A stretch of DNA of 64,000 nucleotides from Arcobacter sp. LC1 (GTDB taxonomy: Bacteria > Campylobacterota > Campylobacteria > Campylobacterales > Arcobacteraceae), in assembly GCA_021378565.1 (NCBI GenBank), contig JAACJU010000002.1, positions 1 to 64,000 of the forward strand. Reading direction: 5' to 3'. The notes under the pieces were generated by a model. It did no database searches. It saw only the letters and a list, made by a program, of their open reading frames with translations, and was not told the origin of the DNA. Positions 4,137 to 62,986 of the stretch are shown piece by piece. The number at the start of each line of letters is the position of its first letter. The first letter of the stretch is position 1. The translations under genes and the position numbers were made by a program.

Positions 4137-5075
4137 TTACTTTTTTAAAATATTATTGATTGATGTGCTTATTTTCTTTGCCCCCAAATAATTTAAATGA
4201 AATTTATCAACAAAATATTTATCACTTAAGTTTAAAGATTTAGTTAAATTGATGTAAATAAAATTATTTGTTAAAGCGAGAGAATGTAGTTTTTTTGTAA
4301 ATAAGGAAGATTCTTTTTTAACTATTCTATATTTTAATATTTTTTGTCTGATTGGCACGCTTGCTACTATTAATTTTATATTTTTATTCCTAAGATAGGC
4401 ATTCATTTTTTCTAAAGTCGCAAAATCATTATTATCTATTGTATCTTTTGGAATTTTAGACCACCTGCCTTTTTTTATATAACTTTTGTTATCAAAATTT
4501 AAATTGACACCACCATATTCATCATAATTTAAATAAGCATATCTATTATGATTTTTATATAATTCTCTATAAAAAAATGTATCTGTCATATGCGAGGTAA
4601 GGGTTTTTAATGTGTGGTAATATGGGTATATAGAATTAATATGATATATATATATGTGAATTTCTATTGAATTAATAGATTTTTTTCTATTGCTAGCAAA
4701 GTCAATATATTGGGTTGAAAAAATAATATATTTTTTATTTTTTAAGCTAATAATTTTTAATAGCTGGAAGACTTCGCTAACTTGTAAACCCCAAGATGAC
4801 AAATTTATTACTTTGCCTAACCTATGATTTTTTTCTAATATTCTTGAATTTATATTATTTAAACCCATTGAAGAGCCAATAACTATAGTACTTGATTGTT
4901 GCAATAGTTTAATATTTTTTCTTAAGAATCTAATTTTAGCATCATAAGAGATTGAATTAGAAAAACGAAAGGGAATATTATTAAGATTATTTTCTAATAT
5001 TATGAATAAAGTTATTATTAAATATATTATTGGTACAAGTGCTAAGCTTATAAAAATCCATTTTTTACTATTCAT
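4137..5075 (-). CDS. SGNH-hydrolase-like protein paired with an MBOAT acyltransferase
   Basis: This 312-residue protein has one N-terminal membrane segment (about residues 6-27) and an extracytoplasmic domain. The motif VIGSSMGLNNINS carries the expected nucleophile serine of the SGNH/GDSL fold, and DKFHLNYLGAKK near the C-terminus supplies the Asp-x-x-His pair. It starts 10 bases after the MBOAT stop on the same strand. MBOAT-SGNH pairs usually pass an acyl group (often acetyl) across the membrane and attach it to a surface or cell-wall glycan. The acceptor is unknown, and PatB-like, AlgX/J-like or DltD-like roles are all possible. Confidence 0.72.
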   Translation of the reverse strand: MNSKKWIFISLALVPIIYLIITLFIILENNLNNIPFRFSNSISYDAKIRFLRKNIKLLQQSSTIVIGSSMGLNNINSRILEKNHRLGKVINLSSWGLQVSEVFQLLKIISLKNKKYIIFSTQYIDFASNRKKSINSIEIHIYIYHINSIYPYYHTLKTLTSHMTDTFFYRELYKNHNRYAYLNYDEYGGVNLNFDNKSYIKKGRWSKIPKDTIDNNDFATLEKMNAYLRNKNIKLIVASVPIRQKILKYRIVKKESSLFTKKLHSLALTNNFIYINLTKSLNLSDKYFVDKFHLNYLGAKKISTSINNILKK

Positions 5076-14482: not shown

Positions 14483-14569
14483 ATTTATCCATAATATAGT
14501 ATAATATAAAATTATAACAAAATGAATATAAAAATTAAAGAAAACATCAAATAAAAAAAGAGTTTTTCC

Positions 14570-15871
14570 TTGAATAAAGCAGATTATCCACTTTTTATCT
14601 TAGCCTCTTTACTTATAGTTATTAGCATAGTATTTTCTTATTCTTTGTCCATTTATACAGTTACGATTTATGATTATAACCAATTTCATTTTTTTCTAAG
14701 ACAATTAATCGCTGGAATTATTTCTATTTTTATTATGTGGGGCTTTTGCTTTATTAATCCTCAAAAAATAGTAAATACCTTAGGGCTTAGCATATTCATA
14801 ATTTTTTTATTTATTTTAATACTTATGCCTTTTTTGCCAACTGCACTTATAAACGAAGCAGGGGGCGCAAATCGCTGGATAAGACTTCCTGGGATTTCTA
14901 TATCTCCTGAAGAATTTTTCAAGATAGGTTTTATATATTTTCTAGCTTGGAGTTTCAGAAGAAGGGTTGTTGAAGTCGCTAAAAAGATTCCTCTTAAAGA
15001 AGAATTTATGTTGCTTTTACCTTATTTTGTTGCTTTTATGCTTGTAGTTTTTTTGTTAGCATTTTTGCAAAAAGATTTAGGGCAAGTTGTACTTCTTGGA
15101 CTTATTTTAATCATTTTACTTATTTTTGCAAATAGGAGTTTTAAGATTTTTCTTAGCCTTGGGCTAATTGCAATTTTAGGAGTATTTACACTTATTGTCA
15201 TAGCTCCACATAGGATTGAAAGATTTTATTCTTGGTGGTCTATGGTTCAAGACAAGATTTTATCTATCGCACCTGCTTGGGCTGAGCAGTATTTAAGAGT
15301 GCAAAATTTACCTGAACCTTATCAAGTTTCAAACTCTTTAAATGCTATTTATCATGGAGGATTTTTTGGTACAGGCGTAGCAAACGGAGTATTTAAACTT
15401 GGATTTTTATCAGAAGTTCATACAGATTTTGTTTTAGCTGGAATGTCAGAAGAGATAGGAATTATAGGACTCGGAATTGTAATTTTTATTTTACTAGCTG
15501 TTGTTTGGAGAATTTTTAGAATAAGCAGAAGGATAGAAAACGCTACTTATCATTTATTTTGTCTTGGAATTGGACTTATGATAATACTTGCTTTTTTGAT
15601 TAATTCTTACGGAATTTCAGGCTTGATTCCTATAAAAGGAATAGCAGTTCCATTTTTAAGCTATGGTGGTTCAGCCTTAATCTCAGTTTCTATTTCTGTC
15701 GGTATGGTTTTGTCAATATCAAAAGAAATACCCATAAACTTATCGCAAGAAGAATATTTATATGATGAAGAAGAAGAACAAAAATTTGATGAAGATTTTG
15801 ATGATGAAGATGCAGAAAATGAATATTATAGCCCTCAAGAATATGAAGATTATAATAAAGATTATGAATAA
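14570..15871 (+). CDS. ftsW: FtsW/RodA/SpoVE-family glycan polymerase
   Basis: This 433-residue membrane protein has about ten hydrophobic segments and the SEDS signatures: GGANRWIRLPGISISPEEF, LQKDLGQ, and GISGLIPIKGIAVPFLSYGG. SEDS proteins polymerise lipid II into glycan strands. The C-terminus is an acidic tail rich in Glu/Asp/Tyr. The best start is a TTG at 14570, as no suitable ATG lies in frame before the first helix. It is followed 8 bases later by murG, the order known from Campylobacter. Confidence 0.87.
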   Translation: MNKADYPLFILASLLIVISIVFSYSLSIYTVTIYDYNQFHFFLRQLIAGIISIFIMWGFCFINPQKIVNTLGLSIFIIFLFILILMPFLPTALINEAGGANRWIRLPGISISPEEFFKIGFIYFLAWSFRRRVVEVAKKIPLKEEFMLLLPYFVAFMLVVFLLAFLQKDLGQVVLLGLILIILLIFANRSFKIFLSLGLIAILGVFTLIVIAPHRIERFYSWWSMVQDKILSIAPAWAEQYLRVQNLPEPYQVSNSLNAIYHGGFFGTGVANGVFKLGFLSEVHTDFVLAGMSEEIGIIGLGIVIFILLAVVWRIFRISRRIENATYHLFCLGIGLMIILAFLINSYGISGLIPIKGIAVPFLSYGGSALISVSISVGMVLSISKEIPINLSQEEYLYDEEEEQKFDEDFDDEDAENEYYSPQEYEDYNKDYE

Positions 15872-27562: not shown

Positions 27563-27696
27563 TTTTTGCCTCTTTCTCTTATCTTAAATTCAAGCTTTTT
27601 ATTTTTCTTATTTTCTTTTTGAAGCATCAAAAAATAATCAAATTCTATTACAGCTAAGCTAAAAACTCCTAAAATCGTATTTATAATAATATTCAT
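27559..27696 (-). CDS. Small prophage membrane protein, 45 residues
   Basis: The frame runs MNIIINTILGVFSLAVIEFD, has one hydrophobic segment and ends in a lysine-rich tail. It overlaps both neighbours by an ATGA or TCA/CAT junction, i.e. four bases each, as in a translationally coupled operon. No family is recognised. The tight overlaps are the reason to accept it. Confidence 0.55.
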   Translation of the reverse strand: MNIIINTILGVFSLAVIEFDYFLMLQKENKKNKKLEFKIRERGKK

Positions 27697-28427
27697 ACTG
27701 CTAATCCTAATAGCTCATCTGCTAGGGCAATTTGTCCTTTACCTGTAATCTTTGTAGTTAAAATAATCCTATTATATATATCTTCATCATTTTTAAAAAG
27801 CTCTTTTTCTATAACTCCAAAATATCCATTATCTATATAAACTTGATATGGTTGATTTTTTCTTCCACCACTGCTTATTAAATAATTTTTCTCTCTTAAC
27901 AATTTAAAAAGATTATTTTGCCCTATAATAAAACCTCTTTTACTAATAAGCTTAGCAAACTCACCTATTAAAATACTTGCTTTACTTTGTGCTATACTAT
28001 TTGCAAACAGCACTTTAGGCTTATCATCTTTTATTTTGTTTTCCAAGGCTTTTACTCTTTCAGTTGACATATTGAGTGCCTTTTGTACAACTTCTTCGTA
28101 TGTTTCAATTTTGGGTGTATTGCCTTGTTTTTCAACTTCTATAAAATAGTTTCTTATTTCTCTACCTTTAATAGTTCTTGAAGCTAAAGCTATGTGTTTG
28201 GCTATATCTAAAGTTACTATGTATTCTTTTAATATTTGACGCTTGACTTTTATGTCAATCGTCAAAAAGTCAATATCAAACTTCAGACCCAAACTATTGA
28301 TTTGAGTTTTAATCCAATTAGCAAATTCTTGCTTTATTTCCAAATTTTGCCATAAGTCCCTAGCATTAATACTATTGACTTCTTTAGCGCCTATTGCATT
28401 TTTGTTTATTTTGATTAATTCTTGCAT
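27693..28427 (-). CDS. Phage antirepressor, AntA/AntB-like N-terminus with KilAC C-terminus (copy 1)
   Basis: This 244-residue protein has an AntA/AntB-type N-terminus (VNSINARDLWQNLEIKQEFA, then LDIAKHIALASR) and a KilAC C-terminus (FANSIAQSKASILIGEFAKL through TTKITGKGQIALADELLG). Antirepressors inactivate the CI-type repressor or act on DNA. Its N-terminus is nearly identical to the antirepressor at 61421-62197, whose C-terminus instead matches the one at 50881-51657. Confidence 0.82.
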   Translation of the reverse strand: MQELIKINKNAIGAKEVNSINARDLWQNLEIKQEFANWIKTQINSLGLKFDIDFLTIDIKVKRQILKEYIVTLDIAKHIALASRTIKGREIRNYFIEVEKQGNTPKIETYEEVVQKALNMSTERVKALENKIKDDKPKVLFANSIAQSKASILIGEFAKLISKRGFIIGQNNLFKLLREKNYLISSGGRKNQPYQVYIDNGYFGVIEKELFKNDEDIYNRIILTTKITGKGQIALADELLGLAV

Positions 28428-31966: not shown

Positions 31967-32359
31967 TTAATAATGTTTATTTAACTTATTGATAAAGCAT
32001 TGAATATCTCTGATAGCACCACTAATCTTTTTTTTTGATGCTATTGCATCATCAATTTTAACAGTTAAATCAAGATAACCATTTATAATTTCTTTTTTCA
32101 AATAAATTTCTAATTTCTCTTTGCTATACATATCGAAAAATCTATTTATTTTTTCTTTATCTTCAATAAATATATCTCTTTTTTCACTGATTGATTGATT
32201 TAACTTAGATTTTATTTCTTGTAAAATCTCTCTAAACACGTCAATAAAATTTGCTCTATCAATCGTTTTTGTTCGCTTGTCTCTTTTAAAAGTTTCTAAA
32301 AGTGTGTATGACGAAACAAAAATAGCTATTAAAGCTAATAAAATACTAACATAATTCAT
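31967..32359 (-). CDS. Small membrane-anchored protein, third gene of the GHKL/STAS operon
   Basis: This 130-residue protein has one N-terminal membrane helix (about residues 4-21), then a charged helical cytoplasmic part (FIDVFREILQEIKSKLNQSI; KKISGAIRDIQCFINKLNK). Its start overlaps the last base of the STAS-like gene. No family is recognised. Its position suggests a membrane effector or anchor for the two upstream proteins, which is inference. Confidence 0.6.
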   Translation of the reverse strand: MNYVSILLALIAIFVSSYTLLETFKRDKRTKTIDRANFIDVFREILQEIKSKLNQSISEKRDIFIEDKEKINRFFDMYSKEKLEIYLKKEIINGYLDLTVKIDDAIASKKKISGAIRDIQCFINKLNKHY

Positions 32360-32697
32360 TATTTTTTATTTTTTTCAATTTCTCTTTCAACATAAGACAT
32401 CATTCTTTTTTTAAATCTTCTAGAATTTGGTGTATCATCTTTTATTTTAATAAAGGTATTTAAATCCTCAATGGTATGATGAAGTGCATACTGTCCAAAA
32501 GCTTCTGATAAAAAAGATGGACCATAAGAAATTTTAGCTCCATCTGGATCTATCAATATGGGTTGTTTTTTATCATACATTTTATCCAAAACTTCATTGC
32601 GAAATTTTTCACCTGAATTTGGCCCCAATCTTATCCATCTTGGTCCGGGATAAGGACTAAATTCTTTAGCAAAATCATAAGGTATTATTTCTAACAT
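32359..32697 (-). CDS. STAS-like DUF4325 protein
   Basis: This 112-residue protein matches DUF4325: a central PNSGEKFRNEVLDKMY and IDPDGAKISYGPSFLSEAFG. The family resembles STAS domains of the anti-anti-sigma factor type, which bind GHKL ATPases. It starts 7 bases inside the end of the GHKL gene, so the two are translationally coupled. That pairing echoes SpoIIAB/SpoIIAA-like partner switching. Confidence 0.78.
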   Translation of the reverse strand: MLEIIPYDFAKEFSPYPGPRWIRLGPNSGEKFRNEVLDKMYDKKQPILIDPDGAKISYGPSFLSEAFGQYALHHTIEDLNTFIKIKDDTPNSRRFKKRMMSYVEREIEKNKK

Positions 32698-33836
32698 TTT
32701 TTATCCTTCATAAATATTTTCCAGCTAATCAAAAAACCATCTATCTTAAATCCCATATCAGCCATATTCTCATACTCTTTACCATTATAATATTTATACT
32801 GATAATTTCCACTGCCTGACATTATTTGCATTTCACAATTATACAATATTTTCTTTGCAAAAGTCTTAAATGTCTTAAAACCATATCCTCTTGCTCTACC
32901 TTGCTTTCCTTTGTATTTCGGTAATTCGTCATTTACTAGCATTTTTATAATATCAGCATCAGTTTTATTTAGTTTATTTATAGTTTGTCTTAAAAAAGCT
33001 TTTATTTTACCATTTGAATTATACTCGATAGTTTTTCTTAATCCTACACCATAATCTCTAAATGAAAATTCTATAAAATTTGCACTTTTATCATAATGTC
33101 CGCATAGCCACCATTTACCTTTTTTTCTATATGGTGTTTCTTCTATATAGGCATGCTCAACACTATTAGCCATTGCCTCTGAAATTGCATCATCAAAATA
33201 ATCTTGAATTTCTTTATCTTCTAGGAATTTTATCTGATCAGTGATAAAATCTCTAACATCGGCTATATATTTTGTTTCAGCAAATACACTAGTCTTAATA
33301 GAAAGAAAATATTTTTCTTTTGTTTTTTCTTTTATTTTATAAGGTTTTTTTATTCCAAAGTTTTTAAAAAAACCAATTTTATACAACATGTATTTTAATT
33401 TTTCATTATTTTTATCGATACCATGTTTTTTATTATATCTCAATCGTTTTGAATTGCTTCCAGGTTTTTTAATTGGTTTTGCTTTTTGTAACATATCGAT
33501 TTCTGAAATAGAATAAAGAAGCCCATTCAATGATATATCTCTTAATTGATTTAGTTCGATGTTGATAGAATAATTATTTCTCTTTATTTTTTCTCTTATG
33601 TCTTTTGTTAAAAATTGAATATTTTTTAAATTTTTTTCAAAATCTATATAATTAGGAAAAACAATCATATCATGATTATGTTTTTTATTTGTGTGTTCTT
33701 TATTGCAATTATATCTTTTTCTTTGTTCATATTTTTGTATTTTTTTCCATTTTGCACTTCTAGTGAATTTTTTATGTTTTTCTGTTAATCTAGAATATTT
33801 TATATATAATCTTCTTATAATTTTTCTTGAATTCAT
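32691..33836 (-). CDS. GHKL-superfamily ATPase (HATPase domain), prophage-encoded
   Basis: This 381-residue protein has a basic N-terminal half without a recognised domain, and a C-terminal Bergerat ATP-binding fold: N-box DAISEAMANSVEHAYIEE, G1 box FSFRDYGVGLRK, and G2 box GKQGRARGYGFKTFK. There is no His-kinase dimerisation box, so it is more like an anti-sigma-type or free-standing ATPase. It lies 60 bases downstream of the CI-type repressor on the same strand, so it may be expressed in the lysogen. It is first of three coupled genes. Confidence 0.75.
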   Translation of the reverse strand: MNSRKIIRRLYIKYSRLTEKHKKFTRSAKWKKIQKYEQRKRYNCNKEHTNKKHNHDMIVFPNYIDFEKNLKNIQFLTKDIREKIKRNNYSINIELNQLRDISLNGLLYSISEIDMLQKAKPIKKPGSNSKRLRYNKKHGIDKNNEKLKYMLYKIGFFKNFGIKKPYKIKEKTKEKYFLSIKTSVFAETKYIADVRDFITDQIKFLEDKEIQDYFDDAISEAMANSVEHAYIEETPYRKKGKWWLCGHYDKSANFIEFSFRDYGVGLRKTIEYNSNGKIKAFLRQTINKLNKTDADIIKMLVNDELPKYKGKQGRARGYGFKTFKTFAKKILYNCEMQIMSGSGNYQYKYYNGKEYENMADMGFKIDGFLISWKIFMKDKKC

Positions 33837-35558: not shown

Positions 35559-35765
35559 ATGTATGGTTCAAATAAAATAAAGACTCAAAAACAAAATATA
35601 AAAGAGTATTTAGAAGATGGCTTAGGCTTGACAAAATTAGGAGCTTTTAAAAATGGCTTTGGTATGAATCTATCTTCTAGAATTTCTGAGCTTAAAAAAG
35701 ATGGCTTAGCGATAAAAACTAGACCTTATATGATTGGTTCAAGAGAAGTGGAATATTATCTGTAA
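35559..35765 (+). CDS. Small helix-turn-helix protein, 68 residues
   Basis: The start is the ATG after AAAAGGAGTAAAA, not an upstream in-frame codon inside the CII-like gene. KQNIKEYLEDGLGLTKLGAF and LSSRISELKKDGLAIKTR form a winged-helix-like pattern seen in small phage proteins. It ends at the base where the helicase frame starts. Confidence 0.6.
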   Translation: MYGSNKIKTQKQNIKEYLEDGLGLTKLGAFKNGFGMNLSSRISELKKDGLAIKTRPYMIGSREVEYYL

Positions 35766-37001
35766 TGGATAATACTTTTGTTTTAGCAATCGAACAAAAC
35801 ATATTAGCAAGTGCTATTTACGAGTCTGAGCTAAGTGAGGAAATATTTTCTAGCTTAGAAGCTAAGGATTTTTATACACAAAGCTCAATGATTATTTTTA
35901 TAGCAATGCAAAAGCTTTTTAGGCAAGATTTACCACTTGATGAAGAGTTTATAAGAAAAGAGATAAATAACCCTAGAGTTGATGTTGTTTTGATTGAAAT
36001 ACTTACTCCAAATGCTATTGTTAATGTTACAGCTTATATCAATGAGCTTAAAAAGCTTAGACAAAGAAGAGAACTTATAAATCTTAATTTAGATTTGAAA
36101 AAAAATATAGATAATGAAAATGTTAGTAATGATGATATTTTTGAAAAGCTGAAACAAGAAGAAGAAAATATAAGAGCTTTGGGATATAAAAAAATAAATA
36201 TATCAAATGCTAATGATTTAAGTGCGAGTGAGCCTGAGTTTTATTGCCAAGATTTTTTACCTATTCCAAACGGTACGATTAGTCTTATTAGCTCAGCTGG
36301 TGGCGTTGGTAAAACTTGGTTAGCCTTGCAACTTGCACTTAGATTTTTAAAACAAAACAAAGATAAAAAAGCTTTTTTGTGGCTTAGTGAAGATAGACAA
36401 AGTTTAGTAAAATCTAGGGTACTTAAGCTATGTGATGCTTTGAATTTTGATTTAAAATTATTGGATAGATTAAATATTAGCTCAGATTTTCCTTTTGCTT
36501 TGCTTCATAGAAATAAAGGAGTGTGGCAAATAAGCTCTAAATTAGAACAGATGAAACAAGAGCTAAAAGACTATAAGTTTATAGTATTTGACCCCCTTGC
36601 TAGCTTTTTATGGAGCAGATGAGAACGACAACAGCCAAGCAAGGCTTTTTATGCAACCTTTTTTGAATTGGTCAAGTGAGCAAAATAAATCTATTATATT
36701 TTTACATCACGCTTCTAAAGGTTCAAATAATACAACCAAAGCAAGAGGTGCAGGAGCTTTTGTAGATGCTTGTAGAATAAGCTATGAGCTAGACAAAGTG
36801 TACTTAAAGGATGGCAAGGCATTAAATAGAGCTTGTTTGCATGAGCGAACTATCAAGCTAGCAAAAGATAATTATGGTGCAATAAAATATCTAAATAAGT
36901 TTGATGTTATAAGGCAGGTAACTCCAAAAGCTGGAGCTGGAGATTATGAACCTGAGGTGATTAATTATTGCTTGCCACAGAACTTAAATAATAATTTTTA
37001 A
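35765..37001 (+). pseudogene. Replicative helicase/ATPase (DnaB N-terminal plus RecA-like AAA_25), frameshifted
   Basis: Residues 1-130 resemble the DnaB N-terminal helical domain (EQNILASAIYESELSEEIFS), followed by a RecA-like core with Walker A SSAGGVGKTWLALQLALRF and Walker B KFIVFDPLASF. Right after FDPLASF a T5 run (36606-36610) shifts the frame. Removing one T restores YGADENDNSQARLFMQPF and the downstream FLHHASKGSNNTTKARGAGA. The rest is open to 37001. It should unwind DNA at the phage origin. As sequenced the ATPase is cut in two. Confidence 0.85.
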
Positions 37002-39120: not shown

Positions 39121-40754
39121 ATGATATTTAAAGACAAAAATTACGAAGCTTATTATGAAAAAACTTTTATTAGACATCAAAATGACTTAGCTGATGTCAA
39201 ACTAGGAATTAAAAAAAATCTTAGATTTAATAAAGCTTTAGCATTAAGTTACATAAAAATTATCGAGCAACTAAAACACTACAAAGGAGAATTAGCAGGA
39301 GAGAAAATCAAACTTGAGCTTTGGCAAAAGAAGATGATTCCCATTGCCTTTGGTTGGCAAAAATTAAATAACACAAAAGAATGGGTTAGAAGATTTAATA
39401 CTATTTTTATTTTTTTACCTAGAAAAAATGGTAAAACAATTTTAGCATCTGCTTTAGGCTTAGCTGATAGCATAATCCTTGGCGAGATTGGCGGAGAAGT
39501 TGTTATATATTTGCTACTAAAAACAAACAAGCTAAACTAGCTTGGCATGGTATTGAAAAAATGATAGACTCAAATCCTGATTTAAAAGATGTTACAAAAA
39601 ATACTTACGGAGTAATAACTTTACAGACTAACGATGTAAGCTTTAGCACCTTAGGTCGAGATAGTGACACAGAAGATGGCTTGAATGTTTCTTTTGGCAT
39701 AGCTGATGAATATCATGCTCACCCTGACAATTCTTTGTTTGAAGTCGTTAAAAGCTCACAAGGAGCTAGAAAGCAACCTTGTATGCTAATTATTACTACC
39801 GCTGGTTTTAATATTTAAAGCCCTTGCTACGATATGTACGAATATGCAAAAAATATCTTAGAAAATAAAATACAAGATGATAATTTCTTTGCTTTTATAG
39901 CTGAGGCTAGTAAAGATGATGATGTATTCTCTGAGCTCACTTGGGCTAAAGCAAATCCAAATTATGGAATATCTATTAAAAAAGATTACATGAAAAACAC
40001 TGCACTTGAAGCACAAAACAGACCAAGTTTAAAAAATAACTTTTTAGTAAAAAATTTAAATATCTGGACTAACTCAAGCGAGGAATTTATATCTTATAGC
40101 GATTGGCTTAGCTGTGCTGGAGAGTTTATTTTTGATGATAACTTGCCTTGTATCTTAGGATTTGATTTATCTATAGCTGATGATTTCTCTGCTTTAGTAA
40201 AAGTTCAAAAGCAAAAAAATAAGTATTTAATCAAAGCTTTTCATTATGTGCCTAAAGCAAATATTGAGAAAAGAGAAAAAACTTTGCGAGTGCCTTTGTT
40301 TGCTTGGGCAAGAGATAAAGTTATCATAGCTACAAATGGAAGAGCTATTGATTACGATTTTATTTACGAGGATATAAAAAAATCTCTTAATACTTGCGAA
40401 GCTTTAGTTTATGATCCGTATAAAGCAAAATATCTAATTAAAAAACTTGAAGATGAGGGCTTTAGCGATACTATTTCACTAAGACAAGGATTTTTATCCC
40501 TATCAAGTCCTACTAAATTTTTACTTGATTTAGTAAAAGATAAAAAAATAATTCACCAAAATGACCCAGTTTTAAATTGGCAAGTATCAAACCTTGCAAT
40601 TTTAAAAGATGCAAGTGGCAATATAAAATTAGATAAAGCTAATGAAAATAGAAAAATAGATGCCTTTGCGGCTTTAATCAATGCACTTAGTTATTTTGAA
40701 GCAAAATCAACTGAGGTTGATATTTATGAAGAAAGGGGGATGAGAGTTTTGTAA
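39121..40754 (+). pseudogene. terL: Terminase large subunit, broken by a frameshift and a stop
   Basis: Frame 1 (39121-39540) holds IFLPRKNGKTILASALGLAD (Walker A type RKNGKT) and ends after GGEVVI; a missing T near 39510 would restore ATKNKQAKLAWHGIEKM. The second frame reads LNVSFGIADEYHAH (Walker B/catalytic) to a TAA at 39816-39818 after TTAGFNI. It then continues in the same frame as SPCYDMYEYAKN to 40754, with nuclease-domain motifs LGFDLSIADDFSAL and KIDAFAALINAL. The packaging motor is not made as one chain. Confidence 0.9.
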
Positions 40755-41221
40755 TTTTTTTTAAAAAGTCTAGAAAGTCTCTTTAGAATTCGATTCTTAT
40801 TATTTTTCCCAGTTTTATTATGATTTAGTGATGTAAAAATTTCAGCATGAGTTTTTTTATTTTTAGTAGCTATGTCTAAAACAAGAAATAATTGATTCTT
40901 TTTATCATCCTCCATTTTTCTAATTTCTCCAACATTTGCAATAAATTGAGCCTCAGCTTTCTTTTTTGCACCTTTTTCAGTTTCTTTAAAATCTTTTATA
41001 AAATCATCAAAATCACATCTCAATACGGATAAAGCAGAAATTCTATCAAATACAGAAATTAAAGAAAATGATGCAAGTTTTCCCTTTTTCGTACATTGTC
41101 CACTGAATGCAAGCCTTACTAAAGTTTCTTCATCTTTGACAATACCAGGAGAATATAAAGTTTTTTGTACTTCGCTTTCTTTCTTTATATTGAGATCATA
41201 ATTGTCTCCCATAGCATTCAT
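40724..41221 (-). CDS. Third gene of a prophage cargo cassette, 165 residues
   Basis: The start overlaps the stop of the middle gene by four bases (ATGA). The N-terminal half reads LYSPGIVKDEETLVRLAFSG, then ISALSVLRCDFDDFIKDF; the C-terminal half is charged. It resembles proteins that accompany TIGR04255-type genes, from memory of gene neighbourhoods rather than a named family. Its 3' end overlaps the terminase 3' end by 31 bases on the other strand. Confidence 0.55.
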   Translation of the reverse strand: MNAMGDNYDLNIKKESEVQKTLYSPGIVKDEETLVRLAFSGQCTKKGKLASFSLISVFDRISALSVLRCDFDDFIKDFKETEKGAKKKAEAQFIANVGEIRKMEDDKKNQLFLVLDIATKNKKTHAEIFTSLNHNKTGKNNKNRILKRLSRLFKKNYKTLIPLSS

Positions 41222-41871
41222 ATAGAAACTTTAAACTTTATCATTTTGGTTAAATCCATATTTTCTTTTTTATTATTTTCAATTTTTCTTATCATATAAT
41301 TAGCTTCTTCTGAACTACTTTCAACATGACTTACGCTAAAAGTAGTTTTAAAAAAAACTTCAAAACTTTTCATTAATTTATATGGTATTTTATACATTGT
41401 TACATCATCTTCCCCATAAAATACATCTGAAATTTCACTGAAAAAAGTGATTTTATCTTTTACATCAAAACTTACCTCTATATAGTCTAAATTATTTTCC
41501 CAAAAAATACCAATCATCCCATTGCCTGCCAACATAATCTCTGGAAAAGGAACTCTAGTTTTTTGTAAAAGTTTTAAAAAAAAGTTTGCTGTGCTTAAAA
41601 TCTTTTTTTTAGGGACAACACCTTGATATCCATCCCAATTTTTTTTTAAATTATTAAATTTTTCTAGTTTTCTATATAAATTTTCATATCCTTTTTGAAG
41701 GTCTTTCAAAGTCATTGAAGACTGTTGAATAAATGAAGCTTTAAATGAATTATCAAAATTATTATTGTTATAGCCTATTTTTGTTTCTTTACCGTTATAA
41801 AAATCAGAAAAATTTTCTATTCTTAATTCTTTTAGTTTGCCATATTTAATTAATTCTAAATTACTACTCAT
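41218..41871 (-). CDS. Middle gene of a prophage cargo cassette, 217 residues
   Basis: I use the internal ATG at 41871 (MSSNLELIKYGK), which overlaps the upstream stop by 8 bases, over a longer frame. The signature LEKFNNLKKNWDGYQGVVPK followed by PEIMLAGNGMIGIFWENN recurs in uncharacterised proteins found in cargo regions. No enzymatic motif is visible, and the likely role is a component of a three-protein system. Confidence 0.55.
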   Translation of the reverse strand: MSSNLELIKYGKLKELRIENFSDFYNGKETKIGYNNNNFDNSFKASFIQQSSMTLKDLQKGYENLYRKLEKFNNLKKNWDGYQGVVPKKKILSTANFFLKLLQKTRVPFPEIMLAGNGMIGIFWENNLDYIEVSFDVKDKITFFSEISDVFYGEDDVTMYKIPYKLMKSFEVFFKTTFSVSHVESSSEEANYMIRKIENNKKENMDLTKMIKFKVSI

Positions 41872-42643
41872 AACTGCTCTTTTTTTTAAAATCAAAAATA
41901 ATATTTTCATGTATTATATCAGCAAAAATCTTTTTACTATGACTATGCATAACTGAAAAAAAATCTTTTATTTTTTTCAGATCAAATACTTCGTTATAAA
42001 ACAAAGTATGCTGAAATTTCAAGTTAACTTTGTGTTGTGAATTACCATTTTGATTAGCAAAATAATTTATATTTATGTTATCAAGTTCTTTGTAATTGCT
42101 TAATTTAGAAAAATATCCTTGATTGACGTGCCAAAAATCATCTGAACTTAAAATGTTTTTTGTTAAATATTTATTATCTTTCTTAAACAGTCTTTCTTTC
42201 CATCCTGATGTTTTATTTATTTTAAATTCATTAAAATAATCTAAAATAATTTTATTTATTTCATATTCTTCTGTAACTAAGTTCATAGCTTTTTCAATAT
42301 ATTTATAAGTTTTTTCTGAAATTTTACTCCATTTTGTATAATAATTATAAGATATTAAAAGTACATTTTTATCCATTCCAAATGTCACAACATTACCATT
42401 ATTTTCTTTTTTAGTACAAATAACATTTACTTTTTTTATCTTATCTATTTTTACATTATTTGACATAGCAGTAAAAGAAGTAGCATTTTCAATGCTAGTA
42501 TTATCAAACTCTTTTTTAAAAAAATCATCTTTATTTATTATTTCTATTATTTTTTCAAAATTTTCAATACTACTTTTAAATATTAAAACGAAATTCACTG
42601 ATTTTACAGCATTATTTTTAGAGCATGACTCTACATTTTCCAT
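41864..42643 (-). CDS. TIGR04255-like protein, first gene of a prophage cargo cassette
   Basis: This 259-residue protein has a central LDNININYFANQ and a C-terminal FDLKKIKDFFSVMHSHSKKI with FADIIHENIIFDF, matching the end pattern of TIGR04255 proteins (a helix with a conserved His followed by F-x-x-x-I). It starts at 42643 in a minus-strand operon placed between terminase and portal. Biochemical function is unknown. Confidence 0.6.
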   Translation of the reverse strand: MENVESCSKNNAVKSVNFVLIFKSSIENFEKIIEIINKDDFFKKEFDNTSIENATSFTAMSNNVKIDKIKKVNVICTKKENNGNVVTFGMDKNVLLISYNYYTKWSKISEKTYKYIEKAMNLVTEEYEINKIILDYFNEFKINKTSGWKERLFKKDNKYLTKNILSSDDFWHVNQGYFSKLSNYKELDNININYFANQNGNSQHKVNLKFQHTLFYNEVFDLKKIKDFFSVMHSHSKKIFADIIHENIIFDFKKKSSYE

Positions 42644-42689
42644 TTTTAATTCCTTTTGAACATTTTATCATAATTTTATTAAATTCATT

Positions 42690-42727
42690 CCCTATTGTTA
42701 AAAAAGTGACAATAGGAATATTATAAT
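42690..42727 (+). promoter_or_regulatory. Palindrome-promoter element 1, in front of the portal operon
   Basis: CCTATTGT (42691-42698) and ACAATAGG (42709-42716) form a perfect 8-bp inverted repeat around ten bases, directly followed by a minus-10 TATAAT at 42722. The same element occurs at 50760, 51705 and 62310 (minus strand). The first codons after it (ATGAGTGATAATATAAAAG) are shared with the copy at 50760. Confidence 0.8.
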
Positions 42728-42732
42728 AAGGC

Positions 42733-42924
42733 ATGAGTGATAATATAAAAGCAAATATAATTTTACATTTTTTCATACTTTTAAATCTTGCAGTTTCTTG
42801 TCTTGGGATTTATGTAATATTTCCTTGCTTTGCAAAAATAGCTTTTTCCTTAATTTTATTTTTTATTCCTTTATCACTAATTATTATCACTCTAATAATT
42901 TCTTATAAAGAAAACAAACAATGA
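42733..42924 (+). CDS. Small prophage membrane protein upstream of portal
   Basis: This 63-residue protein has a short polar start (MSDNIKAN) and two hydrophobic segments (about 10-31 and 36-56). It begins 6 bases after the TATAAT of the palindrome-promoter, so the transcript would be nearly leaderless. It overlaps the portal start by four bases. Function unknown. Confidence 0.6.
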   Translation: MSDNIKANIILHFFILLNLAVSCLGIYVIFPCFAKIAFSLILFFIPLSLIIITLIISYKENKQ

Positions 42925-44144
42925 TAAATTTATTAAATTCATTCAAGCCAAGAGTTGAAGAAAACGGAGGGCTATTTCAAAGTCTAAATCCCTTTAGCTC
43001 GATTGGTGAAAATATTACAAGTTCAAGAGCCTTAGCTCACACTTGTGTTTTTGCTTGTAATAAGATTTTGTCTGAGAGTATCGCAAGTTTACCGTTAGTT
43101 TTATATAAAAAAGATGGCAAAAACAAAGAAAAAGCAAAAGAACATCCACTTTATAATATTTTAAAACACCCAAATAGCGAAAACACAAGCCTAGAATGGC
43201 GAGAAATGATGATAACAAGCCTAAATCTAAAAGGCAATCATTACACACAAATTATCAGAGACGGTAAAAATAATATTTTAGAACTTATGCCTTTAGACAC
43301 TGATAGAATGAGCATTAAAAGATTAGAAAAATCAAAAGAGCTAGTCTATATTTATAAATATGATGATGTGAACGAATATCCTTTGAAGTTTGAAGAAGTT
43401 TTACATGTAAAAGGCTTAAGTCTTGATGGTGTTTACGGACTTAGCCCAATAACATATAATAAAGAAGCTATATCGTTATCTTGCGCAGTTGAAAAGTTTG
43501 GCTCTAAATATTTTGCAAATGGAGCGACACCAAGCGGAGCTTTAAGCGTGGCTGGAACTTTGAGTGAAGATGCCTTTAAAAGATTAAAAGAGCAGTTTGA
43601 GGAAAGTTATACAGGCTTAATCTCAGCACATAAGCCTTTAATCTTAGAAGGTGGTTCAACTTTTGAAAAAATATCTATGAGCAATGAAGATAGTCAGTTT
43701 TTAGATACAAGAAAATATCAAAAGACAGATATTGCAAGTATTTTTAGAGTACCGCCGCACATGATTGGAGATTTAGAGCGAGCTACTTTTTCAAACATAG
43801 AGCAGATGAGCCTAGAATTTGTGATTTATTCTTTATTGCCTTGGCTTACTAGAATAGAACAAGCTATGCAAAGAGATTTGTTATCTGTAGCAGATAGAGC
43901 AGATGGATATTTTATAAAACATAACCTATCAGCACTTTTAAGAGGTGACCAAGCAAGTAGAAGTGAGTTGTATAAAAACTATATCCAAAATGGAATCTTT
44001 AGCATAAATGATGTCTTAGAACTTGAAGATAGAAATCCTACCGATTTAGGAGATAAGAGATATTTTCCTTTAAATTTCGCAACTTTAGAAGATATTCATA
44101 ATGGCACAAATTTAAAAAACAAGGAGGTAAAAAATGAGAGCTAG
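42921..44144 (+). CDS. Phage portal protein, HK97 family
   Basis: This 407-residue protein has the HK97 portal signatures: ALAHTCVFACNKILSESIAS, LKHPNSENTSLEWREMM, FSNIEQMSLEFVIYSLLPWL and LEDRNPTDLGDKRYFPLN. Twelve copies form the DNA entry channel at one capsid vertex. It is coupled to the preceding membrane protein and overlaps the protease by 11 bases. Confidence 0.93.
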   Translation: MINLLNSFKPRVEENGGLFQSLNPFSSIGENITSSRALAHTCVFACNKILSESIASLPLVLYKKDGKNKEKAKEHPLYNILKHPNSENTSLEWREMMITSLNLKGNHYTQIIRDGKNNILELMPLDTDRMSIKRLEKSKELVYIYKYDDVNEYPLKFEEVLHVKGLSLDGVYGLSPITYNKEAISLSCAVEKFGSKYFANGATPSGALSVAGTLSEDAFKRLKEQFEESYTGLISAHKPLILEGGSTFEKISMSNEDSQFLDTRKYQKTDIASIFRVPPHMIGDLERATFSNIEQMSLEFVIYSLLPWLTRIEQAMQRDLLSVADRADGYFIKHNLSALLRGDQASRSELYKNYIQNGIFSINDVLELEDRNPTDLGDKRYFPLNFATLEDIHNGTNLKNKEVKNES

Positions 44145-47537: not shown

Positions 47538-47917
47538 TGAATAATGCAAAAAATACTAAAAGCCTTGAAGTCTTACTGTATGAGCATTTAAAAAATGATA
47601 TTGATTTAAAAAAGCTTATCGATACTAGAATTTATCCTATGAATTTAAAGCAAGATTGCTTGTTTCCTGCTCTTAGATTTTTTATAATTTATGAAGATAC
47701 TAAGCAAGACTTACAAGGTGATATTTATACTAATACTTTACATTTTCAAATAGATATTTTTTCAAGAACTTACCTAGAAGCAAGAGAGTTAAAAGAGCTT
47801 TTAAAATCAGCAGTTTATAACTTCAAATTCCAAAGCTTTGAATTTAATTCAAAAGATATGTATGAAAATGATACAAAACTTTTTAGAATAGTTTGTAGCT
47901 TTTTTATTAATCGTTAA
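47537..47917 (+). CDS. Tail completion protein, DUF3168-like
   Basis: This 126-residue protein has the DUF3168 layout: LYEHLKNDIDLKKLIDTRIY, PALRFFIIYEDTKQDL and HFQIDIFSRTYLEARELKEL. DUF3168 proteins are tail-terminator-like. The last base of the preceding gene is its first base. Confidence 0.78.
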   Translation: MNNAKNTKSLEVLLYEHLKNDIDLKKLIDTRIYPMNLKQDCLFPALRFFIIYEDTKQDLQGDIYTNTLHFQIDIFSRTYLEARELKELLKSAVYNFKFQSFEFNSKDMYENDTKLFRIVCSFFINR

Positions 47918-48435
47918 TTATATTCAAAAATCTTTAGTTTGTTATCTTCTATGCCATTTTTTAATTTTCGTGCCATTGAGTCCATTACATCGTTATGCTC
48001 AAGTTTCCAATCCAAATCATATTTTGTAGAGCGATAATTACCTATATCAAAGGATATTTCTTCTTTGCCTCCTATGCATTCTTGATGAGGAGTTATTGTA
48101 GTATGTCCGTATTTTATATTAGTATAGTCTATATTATATTTTTCTGTGCAAGTTTCATCATCTATATCTGATATGACTCTAAGAACTGCAAAATTTGGTT
48201 TTTTGCAAATTTTTATATTATATTTTTTTAGATATTTTTTAGTTAAAGTTTTCAAGCTTTTTAAGTCTAGATTGTTTTTAAATTTTAAAGTTAAACAAGT
48301 ATTTAAACTTACATCTTTTATACTTGTATTTACAGGGTCGTACGGTTTGATATAAGTTTGGTATATACAAGCATTAAATAAAATCATCACAAAAATTAGT
48401 CCTAAAGCTTGTTTAATATTTCTTATCCCTTTCAT
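47914..48435 (-). CDS. Prophage-encoded putative lipoprotein
   Basis: This 173-residue protein has a hydrophobic signal and lipobox FNAC with Cys near residue 22, then YQTYIKPYDPVNTSIKDVSL and a beta-rich domain with four further cysteines (LNTCLTL, IKICKKP, ETCTEK, QECIGG). It is on the strand opposite to the structural genes, convergent with and overlapping the DUF3168 gene by four bases, and is typical lysogenic-conversion cargo. Superinfection exclusion is possible but unproved. Confidence 0.6.
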   Translation of the reverse strand: MKGIRNIKQALGLIFVMILFNACIYQTYIKPYDPVNTSIKDVSLNTCLTLKFKNNLDLKSLKTLTKKYLKKYNIKICKKPNFAVLRVISDIDDETCTEKYNIDYTNIKYGHTTITPHQECIGGKEEISFDIGNYRSTKYDLDWKLEHNDVMDSMARKLKNGIEDNKLKIFEYN

Positions 48436-48587
48436 AATATTACCTTTTAAATGGATATATTAATTATACTTAAAATTTCTTTTAACTTTTATTTTTCAAT
48501 AGTAAGTGCTTGACTTAATTGCAAAAATAATATATAATGTTTCTACAATTCGCCTAACGGCACACCCACTTTTTAAGTGGGGTAACA

Positions 48588-48983
48588 TTATTCAATCAAT
48601 TTTAAATACTTCTTTTTTAATTTATCAAAGTTTTCTTCATCTATTTTACCTATTTTATTTAAGAGTCTTTTAGTAGAAAAAAGTTTAGTTTGTACTAAAA
48701 TAGCCGAACTGGGTTTATTCTCAATAAAAGTAAAATTATAAAAGAAATTTCCTTCTTTAATGCTAGTGCTTAAAGGGATACCCAAGAACATATCTTTTGT
48801 AAATTTTTTGTAAATTAACACAGGTCTTATAAATTCTTTACCTTTTCCGTTTTGCTCAAATCCAATATTTTGTCCTATTCTTGCCCAAAAAATTTCACGA
48901 GCTTTTATCCCTAAAATTCTTTTATTATCATTTGTTAATTTCTTAACTTCATTCCACTTATTATATTCATTGTCAGTATTCAT
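48588..48983 (-). CDS. PemK/MazF-like toxin (endoribonuclease family)
   Basis: This 131-residue protein has an N-terminal extension (NKWNEVKKLTNDNK), the MazF core REIFWARIGQNIGFEQNGKG, KEFIRPVLIYKKF, IPLSTS, and SSAILVQTKLFSTKRLLNKI. MazF enzymes cut mRNA. No classical antitoxin gene is adjacent; the preceding gene encodes a membrane-anchored protein and the first an HTH. Confidence 0.78.
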   Translation of the reverse strand: MNTDNEYNKWNEVKKLTNDNKRILGIKAREIFWARIGQNIGFEQNGKGKEFIRPVLIYKKFTKDMFLGIPLSTSIKEGNFFYNFTFIENKPSSAILVQTKLFSTKRLLNKIGKIDEENFDKLKKKYLKLIE

Positions 48984-48995
48984 AATTAATCTTTT

Positions 48996-49742
48996 TTATG
49001 GGTTCTTCTCTTTGGAAAGTTTTATGTATTCCCCAGACTCTTCGTCTAGGTCTTCCAAAATTCTGTCTCCTGATTTAAATCTTTCTACATCTTCAAGAAA
49101 ATCTTTTTCTAATGCTTTGGATACAGAAAAAGAAAACTTTTGGTTCTCATCTGCTTTTTTAATATCTGTTTTTATAAAAATTTCTAAATTATATTTCCCT
49201 TCTTTCCAAATAAAATATTTTTTAAACAATACCCGAAAAGGTTCTATTAGTTTATCTTCTACTCTTAAATCTTGATGTGCAGAAAATGTGTGATCAGAAC
49301 TTTTCCTCTTTCTATCAATTATATTTTTTAGTTCTCTATAAGCTGGTTTATAAATTGCTAGGTCATCTTCTTCAAAATAATTTTGAAATATTAGAGTATG
49401 ACTCCATTCCTCGTTTGGCTCTAATGTAAATTCTCTAAATAAGATAAGTTCTTTAGACTCCAAGTCATCAGTAAATTCATCAAGTTTAAAGACTTTTTTT
49501 TCAACATTGCTGGCTAATTTAGCCTTTATGCTTTTAATTAATATTTCTCTAGCACCAACATTTTTAATCGTTAAACCTAAGCTAATCCGTGGATCACCTA
49601 TTGTATGCGTAAGCCAAATTTTGCTATTAAAAGAAAGCTTAAGTTTTGGTGGTAGAATATATTTTTTTAAATGAGTCCAAATACCCATACCAAAACCTGC
49701 AATAGCAGTTACTGAAGTTATCCACTGAATAGTATTATTCAT
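48996..49742 (-). CDS. Membrane-anchored hypothetical protein in a MazF cassette
   Basis: This 248-residue protein has one N-terminal membrane helix (about 5-22) and a domain rich in beta strands (SLGLTIKNVGAREILIKSIK), then acidic helical parts. It lies 3 bases after the HTH gene and 12 before the MazF-like gene on the same strand. No family is recognised; it could be an atypical partner of the toxin. Confidence 0.55.
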   Translation of the reverse strand: MNNTIQWITSVTAIAGFGMGIWTHLKKYILPPKLKLSFNSKIWLTHTIGDPRISLGLTIKNVGAREILIKSIKAKLASNVEKKVFKLDEFTDDLESKELILFREFTLEPNEEWSHTLIFQNYFEEDDLAIYKPAYRELKNIIDRKRKSSDHTFSAHQDLRVEDKLIEPFRVLFKKYFIWKEGKYNLEIFIKTDIKKADENQKFSFSVSKALEKDFLEDVERFKSGDRILEDLDEESGEYIKLSKEKNP

Positions 49743-50089: not shown

Positions 50090-50728
50090 ATGAAAGCATT
50101 AATTGAAGTTTTGGGCAATGAATTATTAGTTTCACACAGAGTGATAGCAGAGCATACAGCTAACAAAGTAGTAAGTATTCAAAATCTTATTACATCAAAT
50201 ATAGATGATTTAAAAGAGTTTGGAAAGCTTCATTTTAAAAATGAGGCTATAAAAAATAGTAAAAATAAAACAAATAAACAAGTAACTTATTATTTAAATG
50301 AATATCAATTTTATTTACTTATAACCTACATTAGAAACAATGACAAAGTAAGAGAGTTTAAAAAGGCTTTGATAAAAGAGTTTCATAGTTTAAAAAATAG
50401 CAAAGGACTTCAAGGAAGAGTTGAAGGACTAACAAAAGCAAATTATTCTTATAAAAAATATATCAATAAGCTTTTAAATGATATTAAACTTTTAGAAAAT
50501 AAACAAAAACAAATACCTAACAAATGTGTGCTAGATTTTAAAGTTTGGGGTAGAAACGACCTTTTAGAATTTGTGGCAAGTGTTCAAAGACAAGAGCAAG
50601 ATTTAAATGATTGTTTTAAGATTATGATTCATAATTATAAAATAACTAATAAAATGATGAATAATTTCTTAAAATTATACCCTGAAGTTAATCCAGACTC
50701 AAAATCAAGAACTTTTACTGATTACTAA
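50090..50728 (+). CDS. Rha-family phage regulatory protein (copy 1)
   Basis: This 212-residue protein has a Rha-type N-terminus: LLVSHRVIAEHTANKVVSIQ, then QVTYYLNEYQFYLLITYIRN. From about residue 97 onwards (EFHSLKNSKGLQGRV to DSKSRTFTDY) it is nearly identical to the protein at 62342-62986. The N-termini differ, so the two share a C-terminal module with distinct sensor or DNA-binding parts. Confidence 0.75.
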   Translation: MKALIEVLGNELLVSHRVIAEHTANKVVSIQNLITSNIDDLKEFGKLHFKNEAIKNSKNKTNKQVTYYLNEYQFYLLITYIRNNDKVREFKKALIKEFHSLKNSKGLQGRVEGLTKANYSYKKYINKLLNDIKLLENKQKQIPNKCVLDFKVWGRNDLLEFVASVQRQEQDLNDCFKIMIHNYKITNKMMNNFLKLYPEVNPDSKSRTFTDY

Positions 50729-50801: not shown

Positions 50802-50897
50802 ATGAATGATAATATAAAAGTTGAAGAGTCGCAAGAACTCATAGCTATTTTATATGCACAAATCAAAAAAGGAGTAAAACATGGAAAATTTATTTAA
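50802..50897 (+). CDS. Leader-like small reading frame upstream of antirepressor copy 2
   Basis: The 31-codon frame MNDNIKVEESQELIAILYAQ begins 5 bases after the TATAAT and overlaps the antirepressor start by 17 bases, with that gene's AAAGGAG site inside it. Its first codons match those of the small protein at 42733. It could be a translation-coupling leader or a relic of a duplicated gene. Confidence 0.4.
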   Translation: MNDNIKVEESQELIAILYAQIKKGVKHGKFI

Positions 50898-51657
50898 TAT
50901 TGAAAAAGTGGAGAATAAGTTATATTTTAGTGGCACAATGCCAATAGGAACAGTTATCACATTAAAAGAAATAACAGATATTTTAGATGTAAGACACAAT
51001 GACGCAATGACAAGTACTAAAAAGCTAGGAGAAGTGCCTAGTTTTGGGGTTTTACGAAAATTGAGTATTACCTCTTCAGCTATTGGCGGAAGACCTACTG
51101 CAACTTATGCTTTAACTAAAAAACAAGCTATCGCAGTAGGTGCGAAGTTGAATAATAGTTTATTAATGAAAGTAATTGATAGATTAGAAGAGCTTACAGA
51201 AAAGCCTAAAATGCCTAATCACTTAGAAACAGCGAAAATGTTAGTTAGTAGCTTAGAAGACAATCAAAAGCTTAAAGTTGAAAATCTAGCACTTGAAGAC
51301 AAAATACAAGATGACAAACCAAAAATAGTCTTTGCTAATAGTGTATCACAAAGCTATTCAAGTATTTTAATAGGACAATTTGCCAAAGCAATTAGCAAAG
51401 GTGGATTTACTATTGGACAAAATAGGCTTTTTACCTGGCTTCGTGAAAATGGGTTTCTTTGCTCAAGCGGTGCAAACTACAATCAACCCAAACAAAAGTA
51501 TATAGATAATAAGTATTTTGAGATTATAGAACGGACTGTAAATAGCCCAGATGGAAACACTAGGCTTACAATGACAACCAAAGTTACAGGAAAAGGACAA
51601 GTTGCCTTAGCTAATAAGATTTTAGCTTCAGGTGTTGGGTTAAGGTTGGTGGTATAG
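50881..51657 (+). CDS. Rha-like/KilAC antirepressor (copy 2)
   Basis: This 258-residue protein has an N-terminal Rha-like domain (LKEITDILDVRHNDAMTSTK, then GGRPTATYALTKKQAIAVGA) and a KilAC C-terminus (FANSVSQSYSSILIGQFAKA, KVTGKGQVALANKILASG). The C-terminus is nearly identical to that at 61421-62197, while the N-terminus is different. It probably antagonises the lysogenic repressor or a related factor. Confidence 0.8.
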   Translation: MENLFNIEKVENKLYFSGTMPIGTVITLKEITDILDVRHNDAMTSTKKLGEVPSFGVLRKLSITSSAIGGRPTATYALTKKQAIAVGAKLNNSLLMKVIDRLEELTEKPKMPNHLETAKMLVSSLEDNQKLKVENLALEDKIQDDKPKIVFANSVSQSYSSILIGQFAKAISKGGFTIGQNRLFTWLRENGFLCSSGANYNQPKQKYIDNKYFEIIERTVNSPDGNTRLTMTTKVTGKGQVALANKILASGVGLRLVV

Positions 51658-61420: not shown

Positions 61421-62197
61421 CTACACTACTAACCTTAGCCCAACACCTGAAGCTAAAATCTTATCAGCTAGTGCAACTTGTCCTTTACCTGTAACTTTGG
61501 TTGTCATTGTAAGTCTAGTGTTTCCATCTGGGCTATTCACAGTCCGTTCTATAATCTCAAAATACTTATTATCTATATATTTTTGTTTGGGTTGATTGTA
61601 ATTTGCACCGTTTTGGCATAAGTAGCCATTTTCTCTAAGCCAAGTAAAAAGTCTATTTTGTCCTATTGAAAATCCATCTTTGCTAATTGCTTTTGCAAAT
61701 TGTCCTATTAAAATACTTGAATAGCTTTGTGATACACTATTAGCAAAGACTATTTTTGGTTTATCATTTTGTATCTTGGTTTCTAGGTGAACTACTTTTT
61801 CATCTAGTTGCTTAATAACTTTTGTATTTTCTTCTAGAAGCTCAGCTAATGATAAAGCTTTAGGCATATTGCCTTGTTTTTCTACTTCTATAAAATAGTT
61901 TCTTATTTCTCTACCTTTGTCAGTTCGTGAAGCTAAAGCTATATGTTTTGATATATCTAAAATTAAAGCATATTCAATTAAGGTTTTATTTCCATATCCC
62001 TTATTATCCCCTTTGACTTTTATGTCAAAGCGGATAAAGTCTGTATTTTCTTTAAGTCCTAAGCTAATTATTTGCTTTTTTATCCAACTCGCAAACTCTT
62101 GCTTGATTTCTAATTTTTGCCATAAGTCTCTAGCATTAATACTATTAACCTCTTTGGCACCTATTGAGTTTTTGTTTATTTTGATTAATTCTTGCAT
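61421..62197 (-). CDS. Phage antirepressor, AntA/AntB-like N-terminus with KilAC C-terminus (copy 3)
   Basis: This 258-residue protein has an N-terminus (VNSINARDLWQKLEIKQEFA) that nearly copies the antirepressor at 27693-28427, and a C-terminus (FANSVSQSYSSILIGQFAKA through KILASGVGLRLVV) that nearly copies the one at 50881-51657. It is therefore a domain chimera of the other two. AAAGGACAAGC precedes its start, and a palindrome-promoter lies upstream. Confidence 0.82.
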   Translation of the reverse strand: MQELIKINKNSIGAKEVNSINARDLWQKLEIKQEFASWIKKQIISLGLKENTDFIRFDIKVKGDNKGYGNKTLIEYALILDISKHIALASRTDKGREIRNYFIEVEKQGNMPKALSLAELLEENTKVIKQLDEKVVHLETKIQNDKPKIVFANSVSQSYSSILIGQFAKAISKDGFSIGQNRLFTWLRENGYLCQNGANYNQPKQKYIDNKYFEIIERTVNSPDGNTRLTMTTKVTGKGQVALADKILASGVGLRLVV

Positions 62198-62341: not shown

Positions 62342-62986
62342 TTAATAATCAGTAAAAGTTCTTGATTTTGAGTCTGGATTAACTTCAGGATATAATTTTA
62401 AGAAATTATTCATCATTTTATTAGTTATTTTATAATTATGAATCATAATCTTAAAACAATCGTTTAAGTCTTGTTCTTGTCTTTGAACACTTGCGATAAA
62501 TTCTAAAAGGTCATTTCTGCCATAAACTTTAAAATCTAGCACACATTTGTTAGGTATTTGTTTTTGTTTATTTTCTAAAAGTTTAATATCATTTAAAAGC
62601 TTATTGATATATTTTTTATAAGAATAATTTGCTCTTGTCAGTCCTCCAACTCTTCCTTGAAGACCTTTGCTATTTTTTAAACTATGAAACTCTTTGACCA
62701 ATAAGACTTTAAATTTAACTACCTTAGAACTATTTTTTAATAGTGTCATTAAAAAAATTGCTTGTGATTCATTTAAGAGTGCTACTGTTTTAGGTTTGTT
62801 TTTTCTGCCTAGTGCGTCCGTTGCCGATTTTAAATCGGTGACGTTAAGTTCCCCAAATTCTTCAAGCTCATTAGAAAATTTAGTTATTAAATCTCTAATG
62901 CTTTTATATTGATTGTTTGTATTATCTGCTATTGTTATAGCTGAAACTGTTGGTTTGTTGTTTTGTATTGTGATAAGCTGTTGCAT
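62342..62986 (-). CDS. Rha-family phage regulatory protein (copy 2)
   Basis: This 214-residue protein has an N-terminal Rha-type part (VSAITIADNTNNQYKSIRDL, then NESQAIFLMTLLKNSSKVVK) and the shared C-terminal module also found at 50090-50728. It lies upstream of antirepressor copy 3 on the minus strand, so the two-gene module exists twice in opposite orientation. Confidence 0.75.
   Translation of the reverse strand: MQQLITIQNNKPTVSAITIADNTNNQYKSIRDLITKFSNELEEFGELNVTDLKSATDALGRKNKPKTVALLNESQAIFLMTLLKNSSKVVKFKVLLVKEFHSLKNSKGLQGRVGGLTRANYSYKKYINKLLNDIKLLENKQKQIPNKCVLDFKVYGRNDLLEFIASVQRQEQDLNDCFKIMIHNYKITNKMMNNFLKLYPEVNPDSKSRTFTDY

Follow-up and report, generated by a model that had tools for sequence, protein, structure and literature searches.

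The window analysed here, a stretch of 64,000 nt from Arcobacter sp. LC1, carries an HK97-like prophage in which three genes lie on the minus strand, opposite to the plus-strand block of head genes. Gene A (41864-42643, 259 aa) encodes a TIGR04255 family protein, gene B (41218-41871, 217 aa) a protein with a WDGY domain, and gene C (40724-41221, 165 aa) the third protein and candidate effector. All three open reading frames were recovered at these positions, as expected from a first-pass annotation that had described them as one overlapping minus-strand operon, and the overlaps (8 nt between A and B, 4 nt, ATGA, between B and C) indeed join them into a single operon. To the left, the end of C overlaps the 3' end of the plus-strand gene for the terminase large subunit (39121-40754) by 31 bp. 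To the right follow, both on the plus strand, a gene for a 63-aa hydrophobic phage protein (42733-42924) and the portal gene (42921-44144). The cassette was said to sit between terminase and portal, which holds true, except that A and the portal are further separated by the small membrane gene.

A related prophage in genome G036 (locus L065) documents the empty site: its gene order is terminase, a 61-aa hydrophobic membrane gene (4623-4808) similar to that for the 63-aa protein of the window, and portal, and the gap between terminase and membrane gene measures just 72 bp, with the cassette absent. It is this site that the cassette fills in the window. Besides, its base composition differs from that of the flanking phage genes, with a GC content of 0.20 for A, 0.23 for B and 0.28 for C against 0.30 for terminase and 0.31 for portal, so that A and B in particular are markedly AT-richer than their neighbours. 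That a related phage lacks the genes at this very site and that their base composition deviates are marks of morons and other accessory genes; together with the differing insertion points among phages described below, these observations substantiate the moron-like placement suggested earlier. The three genes thus make up one accessory operon, which is mobile and has settled between terminase and the small membrane gene ahead of the portal. Judged from the position between terminase and portal alone, they might be taken for ordinary morphogenesis genes of this phage lineage, yet they run against the structural genes, deviate from them in GC, are missing from the same site in the G036 prophage, and recur in an inovirus-like prophage and at chromosomal loci without phage genes. 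The empty site and the occurrence outside tailed phages already contradict this explanation, to which we attach next to no weight.

The resident prophage is now decaying. Three-frame translation revealed that its terminase gene is disrupted by a frameshift near 39535 and an in-frame stop at 39816 (the relatives in G026 and G036 are intact, with 549-558 aa), and a frameshift near 36590 breaks the DnaB/primase-like replication gene (35765-37001) in two. Given the terminase lesions, the prophage can probably no longer package itself. Unlike these two genes, all three cassette frames are open. Upstream of A, a consensus scan returned a promoter-like site on the minus strand (42673-42701; TTAACA, 17 nt, TAAAAT; 10 of 12 positions), which is weak evidence since the same scan of the region yielded 30 sites when 17.6 were expected from shuffles. 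A perfect 8-bp inverted repeat, CCTATTGT-N10-ACAATAGG (42691-42716), overlaps this site and might represent an operator, or may have arisen by chance.

Elsewhere in the same prophage, further accessory genes were observed. An early-region trio on the minus strand (31967-33836) comprises a 381-aa protein with an ATPase-like motif (recognised by eye), a DUF4325 STAS-like protein (Pfam, E = 4.7e-11) and, third, a protein of 130 aa whose start is hydrophobic; the trio had no match in PADLOC and looks like another accessory cassette. A second accessory block, in the tail region (47914-49742, minus strand), holds a lipoprotein-like gene, a PemK/MazF-like toxin gene (48588-48983, E = 2.3e-6) with no obvious antitoxin, and a gene for a 248-aa protein. 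Paralogues of the AntA/KilAC antirepressor and Rha types are spread along the prophage (27693-28427, 50881-51657, 61421-62197, 50090-50728 and 62342-62986), and their C-terminal parts are near-identical.

As for the individual proteins, the assignment of A as TIGR04255-like was confirmed by a score of 32.9 bits (E = 5.8e-8), above the NCBIfam cut-off of 30, with positions 27-247 of the 252 in the model covered. PADLOC returned no credible match for A. An AlphaFold2 model (pLDDT 80.5, pTM 0.84) gave weak matches only, to helix-grip (START/Bet v1) and TBP-like folds (E 0.002-0.003, TM 0.16-0.25), and its strands and helices succeed one another in a sequence reminiscent of a duplicated TBP-like fold; given how weak these matches are, we draw no function from them. 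B does contain the LKKNWDGYQG pattern noted before and has no Pfam or NCBIfam family above cut-off. The one similarity found for it is a weak partial match of residues 64-139 to positions 257-332 of the 375 in PDC-M32A, a PADLOC candidate model (E = 1.6e-5), the best match within the B family being that of the G270 member (E = 1.3e-8). The start of B is the ATG at 41871, and a longer reading from 41910 would add MKILFLILKKRAV.

The product of C carries the sequence pattern pointed out in the first-pass annotation, LYSPGIVKDEETLVRLAF, and belongs to a conserved family with the motifs E..R, LSVLR, D.A and HA[DE]I, which matched no family in Pfam, NCBIfam or PADLOC. For a Sulfurovum member, an AlphaFold2 model of good quality scores (pLDDT 85.6, pTM 0.83) was obtained, for which Foldseek found nothing at E<=0.001 (best E 1.7 in PDB and 0.07 in BFVD), and no catalytic family was detectable for C. 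The window's C lacks an SP.H motif that all eight other C proteins have, and in its B, as annotated, the hydrophobic stretch present at the N-terminus of most relatives is missing and is regained only with the upstream ATG at 41910. Taken together, these two features suggest that the window's copy of the cassette may be altered.

We searched the family with B and the phylum with PDC-M32A and TIGR04255, and then scanned the flanks with profiles. Six other genomes turned out to hold the three families together and in unchanged order, a recurrence that makes a chance grouping of the three genes untenable. Seven complete triads are hence known in Campylobacterales, namely those of the window, G024 (L006), G270 (L038), G432 (L039), G449 (L035), G428 (L036) and G393 (L037); A orthologues are present in the six others, and the B family is kept in all seven. 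A search of 399 genomes with C alone added two further C genes (G529 and G311), for which contig ends cut off B and A or A only, and this search revealed no credible C gene with intact upstream sequence that lacked B and A. The expectation that similar triads recur has therefore proved right, all the more so in view of a wider set with exchangeable third genes (see below), while the literal combination of this B with this C turned up nowhere outside Campylobacterales. Matches to B or PDC-M32A in G072, G050 and G224 lie inside unrelated genes and were dismissed as chance, and a match to C in G194 (E = 5.5e-4, inside a 456-aa frame) likewise looks like chance.

At two of these loci, phage-type genes lie next to the cassette. 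In G024, the triad adjoins the integrase gene of a prophage that carries Zot-like and filamentous-phage replication genes (phage family assigned by eye), and the pair in G529 adjoins a gene resembling the filamentous-phage replication gene of that prophage; other triads lie among chromosomal genes. The G024 element (L006:1-14944, Aliarcobacter sp.) is a filamentous-phage-like prophage with a Zot-like ATPase, a secretin-like protein, an integrase and the triad, and a partial duplicate of the integrase end (14373-14786) lies beyond the triad, as if the latter stood between direct repeats. Among the four close copies (L006, L035, L036 and L037), whose hosts belong to three families, gene A is 83-90% identical at the DNA level, and dN/dS ranges over 0.07-0.21 for A, 0.13-0.40 for B and 0.11-0.26 for C. 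All three genes are thus under purifying selection, and such identity across three host families, combined with ratios well below 1, indicates a mobile unit that is maintained by selection. Several searches of mobile-element collections came back empty: IMG/VR contained no close relatives of C when queried with a single protein and no match to profile-derived patterns for A and B, plasmids contained no close relatives of B, and tblastn with the Sulfurovum proteins gave no hits for A, B or C in plasmids and none for A in phages.

Beyond the literal triad, TIGR04255 led a three-gene run at every gene examined, including all others in the phylum (L027-L034). The protein encoded by the second gene is smaller and in most cases starts with a hydrophobic stretch, and the third genes fall into unrelated families: the window's type, a HEPN-like type, a type we refer to as LSNSCD, and a Cys/His type. 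Twelve further loci make up this exchangeable set, five of them HEPN-like (L027, L029, L031, L033 and L043, the latter in Sulfurimonas phage SNW-1), five LSNSCD (L028, L030, L040 on a Phocaeicola plasmid, L041 in Pseudomonas phage VW-6S and L042 in Pseudomonas phage Dobby) and two Cys/His (L032 and L034). A constant A, a smaller B and a C drawn from unrelated families hence define a wider cassette type. Both Cys/His-type B proteins and some HEPN-type ones are without a clear hydrophobic stretch. At L040 (3606-5321), the LSNSCD cassette stands directly behind an integrase in a 15-kb unannotated plasmid record. In the two Cys/His operons (L032:4984-6987 and L034:4316-6240), the third genes had no profile match and share conserved H.G.LY and GLTC[AS]T motifs, which are reminiscent of hydrolases of the NlpC/P60 or YiiX type; at L032, the cassette follows a DNA cytosine methyltransferase gene, a second gene and one for a very-short-patch-repair-like endonuclease. 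Profile comparison gave no support for a shared origin of the window's C with either the LSNSCD or the Cys/His third genes.

A profile of the HEPN-like third genes retrieved three hits in PDB, all of them HEPN proteins, although the best is marginal (E = 0.0038), and a profile-profile comparison with the PF05168 HEPN proteins of the phylum did not reproduce this result; the Pfam HEPN model did not match these genes either. The HEPN relation of the third genes at these five loci is therefore likely but not proven, and the C of this version would probably be an RNase. For the window's own C, a HEPN effector was considered and rejected, as there was no PDB or Pfam match and the profile comparison with the HEPN-like third genes reached a probability of 16%.

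Two further explanations were considered. In the first, the cassette would act in addiction, as a toxin-antitoxin module by which the prophage or another element is stabilised, with C as toxin, A and/or B as antitoxin, and phage defence as no more than a by-product. The HEPN-like C of part of the cassettes would fit this, as would the compact, translationally coupled operon, the carriage by prophages and a plasmid and beside integrases, and the open cassette frames next to a broken terminase and DnaB-like gene. However, three genes with a first protein of 260 aa and an often hydrophobic-start middle protein would be unusual for a simple toxin-antitoxin module, and no antitoxin-type DNA-binding domain was found, so that we regard an addiction module as unlikely, though still the most serious competitor. 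The second explanation takes up the hydrophobic start seen in many B proteins, which in the best cases exceeds 95% of shuffles: as an export signal, it would point to a cassette for lysogenic conversion, one that alters the envelope or some other property of the host without being aimed at phages, with C modifying a periplasmic or surface target. Against this, inspection found no signal or membrane segment in A or C, a HEPN-like C would act as a cytoplasmic RNase, and the window's B is devoid of the hydrophobic stretch, which makes lysogenic conversion a rather improbable explanation.

Phage carriage is documented for the LSNSCD version. In 36 of 37 distinct IMG/VR contigs with an LSNSCD gene, TIGR04255 lies directly upstream on the same strand, at a distance of 300-640 bp that leaves room for B, the one exception starting at a contig end; some of the 36 contigs are close relatives and thus stand for fewer independent events. 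The genes neighbouring these cassettes include CI-type repressors, integrases, Q-like antiterminators, HNH and tail genes, and in Dobby (Peduoviridae) the cassette is situated between integrase and portal. Such varied neighbours imply that the insertion points vary and that different phages were entered at different places.

A constant A, an exchangeable C (HEPN-like in one version), carriage by phages and insertion at accessory sites are together best explained by a conflict system that the resident prophage would direct against competing phages, through superinfection exclusion or abortive infection, and we put the probability of this reading at roughly 0.5. The layout, a constant first gene with an exchangeable third, matches that of a phage-versus-phage defence (or toxin) system. 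Under such a scheme, all versions would share A as the part that senses or provides the scaffold, B could link A to C as an adaptor and perhaps anchor the complex to the membrane, and C would be an effector that, once released, harms the cell or the invader. Weighing against this reading are the failure of PADLOC to recognise A or C, the absence of any catalytic family or fold match for C, the marginal HEPN score, the signs that the window's copy may be altered, and the B proteins of other versions in which a clear hydrophobic stretch is missing. More tentatively, phage-borne TIGR04255 operons might constitute a new and widespread class of three-component immune systems, made up of a sensor or scaffold A, a coupler B and swappable effectors, modular in the manner of CBASS or retrons, and with an effector fold in the window that has not been seen before; we hold this bolder version to be somewhat less likely than its being wrong.

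If the conflict reading is right, a sporadic protein family would turn out to be the hallmark of a modular phage-borne system, whose range here extends over Campylobacterota, Pseudomonas phages and a Bacteroidota plasmid. A constant core with swapped effectors would further offer a ready test for each version, and searching for TIGR04255 genes would be a simple route to more cassettes and to new effector types. The cassette type seems to be undescribed in the published open-access papers and the databases searched. In line with the earlier statement that no assigned function was known, "TIGR04255" occurred in none of those papers, nor was TIGR04255 mentioned there together with HEPN, and in the PADLOC library of defence systems A and C went unrecognised, with B matching a candidate only in part.

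Among known systems, the PADLOC candidate PDC-M32 (PDC-M32A/PDC-M32B), reported from phiLM21-like prophages of Sinorhizobium meliloti (PMC12429752), has one part in common with the cassette, the last third of PDC-M32A (positions 246-356 of 375), to which the WDGY region of B can be aligned. However, B lacks the other two thirds and the gene content is unlike; the PDC-M32B partner had no match in A or C of the window and three relatives. Membership in PDC-M32 was thus ruled out, there being neither a full-length PDC-M32A nor a PDC-M32B partner next door. HEPN conflict modules such as HEPN-MNT and retron-HEPN share with the cassette type the HEPN-like third gene of one version, whereas the window's C is not HEPN-like. 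P2-like phages possess a cos-proximal defence hotspot between gpA and the portal gene gpQ, whose reported contents include old/tin, DUF4238, DprA-PRTase and a system of three genes that lack clear domains (Rousset et al. 2022, PMC9122126). The Dobby cassette adjoins the portal gene at the corresponding place, while the description of the hotspot consulted here names no TIGR domain. TIGR04255 itself (NCBIfam sporadTIGR04255, "TIGR04255 family protein"), to which A belongs under the curated cut-off, is a named family without assigned function, and none of the papers searched describes the conserved operon in which it occurs.
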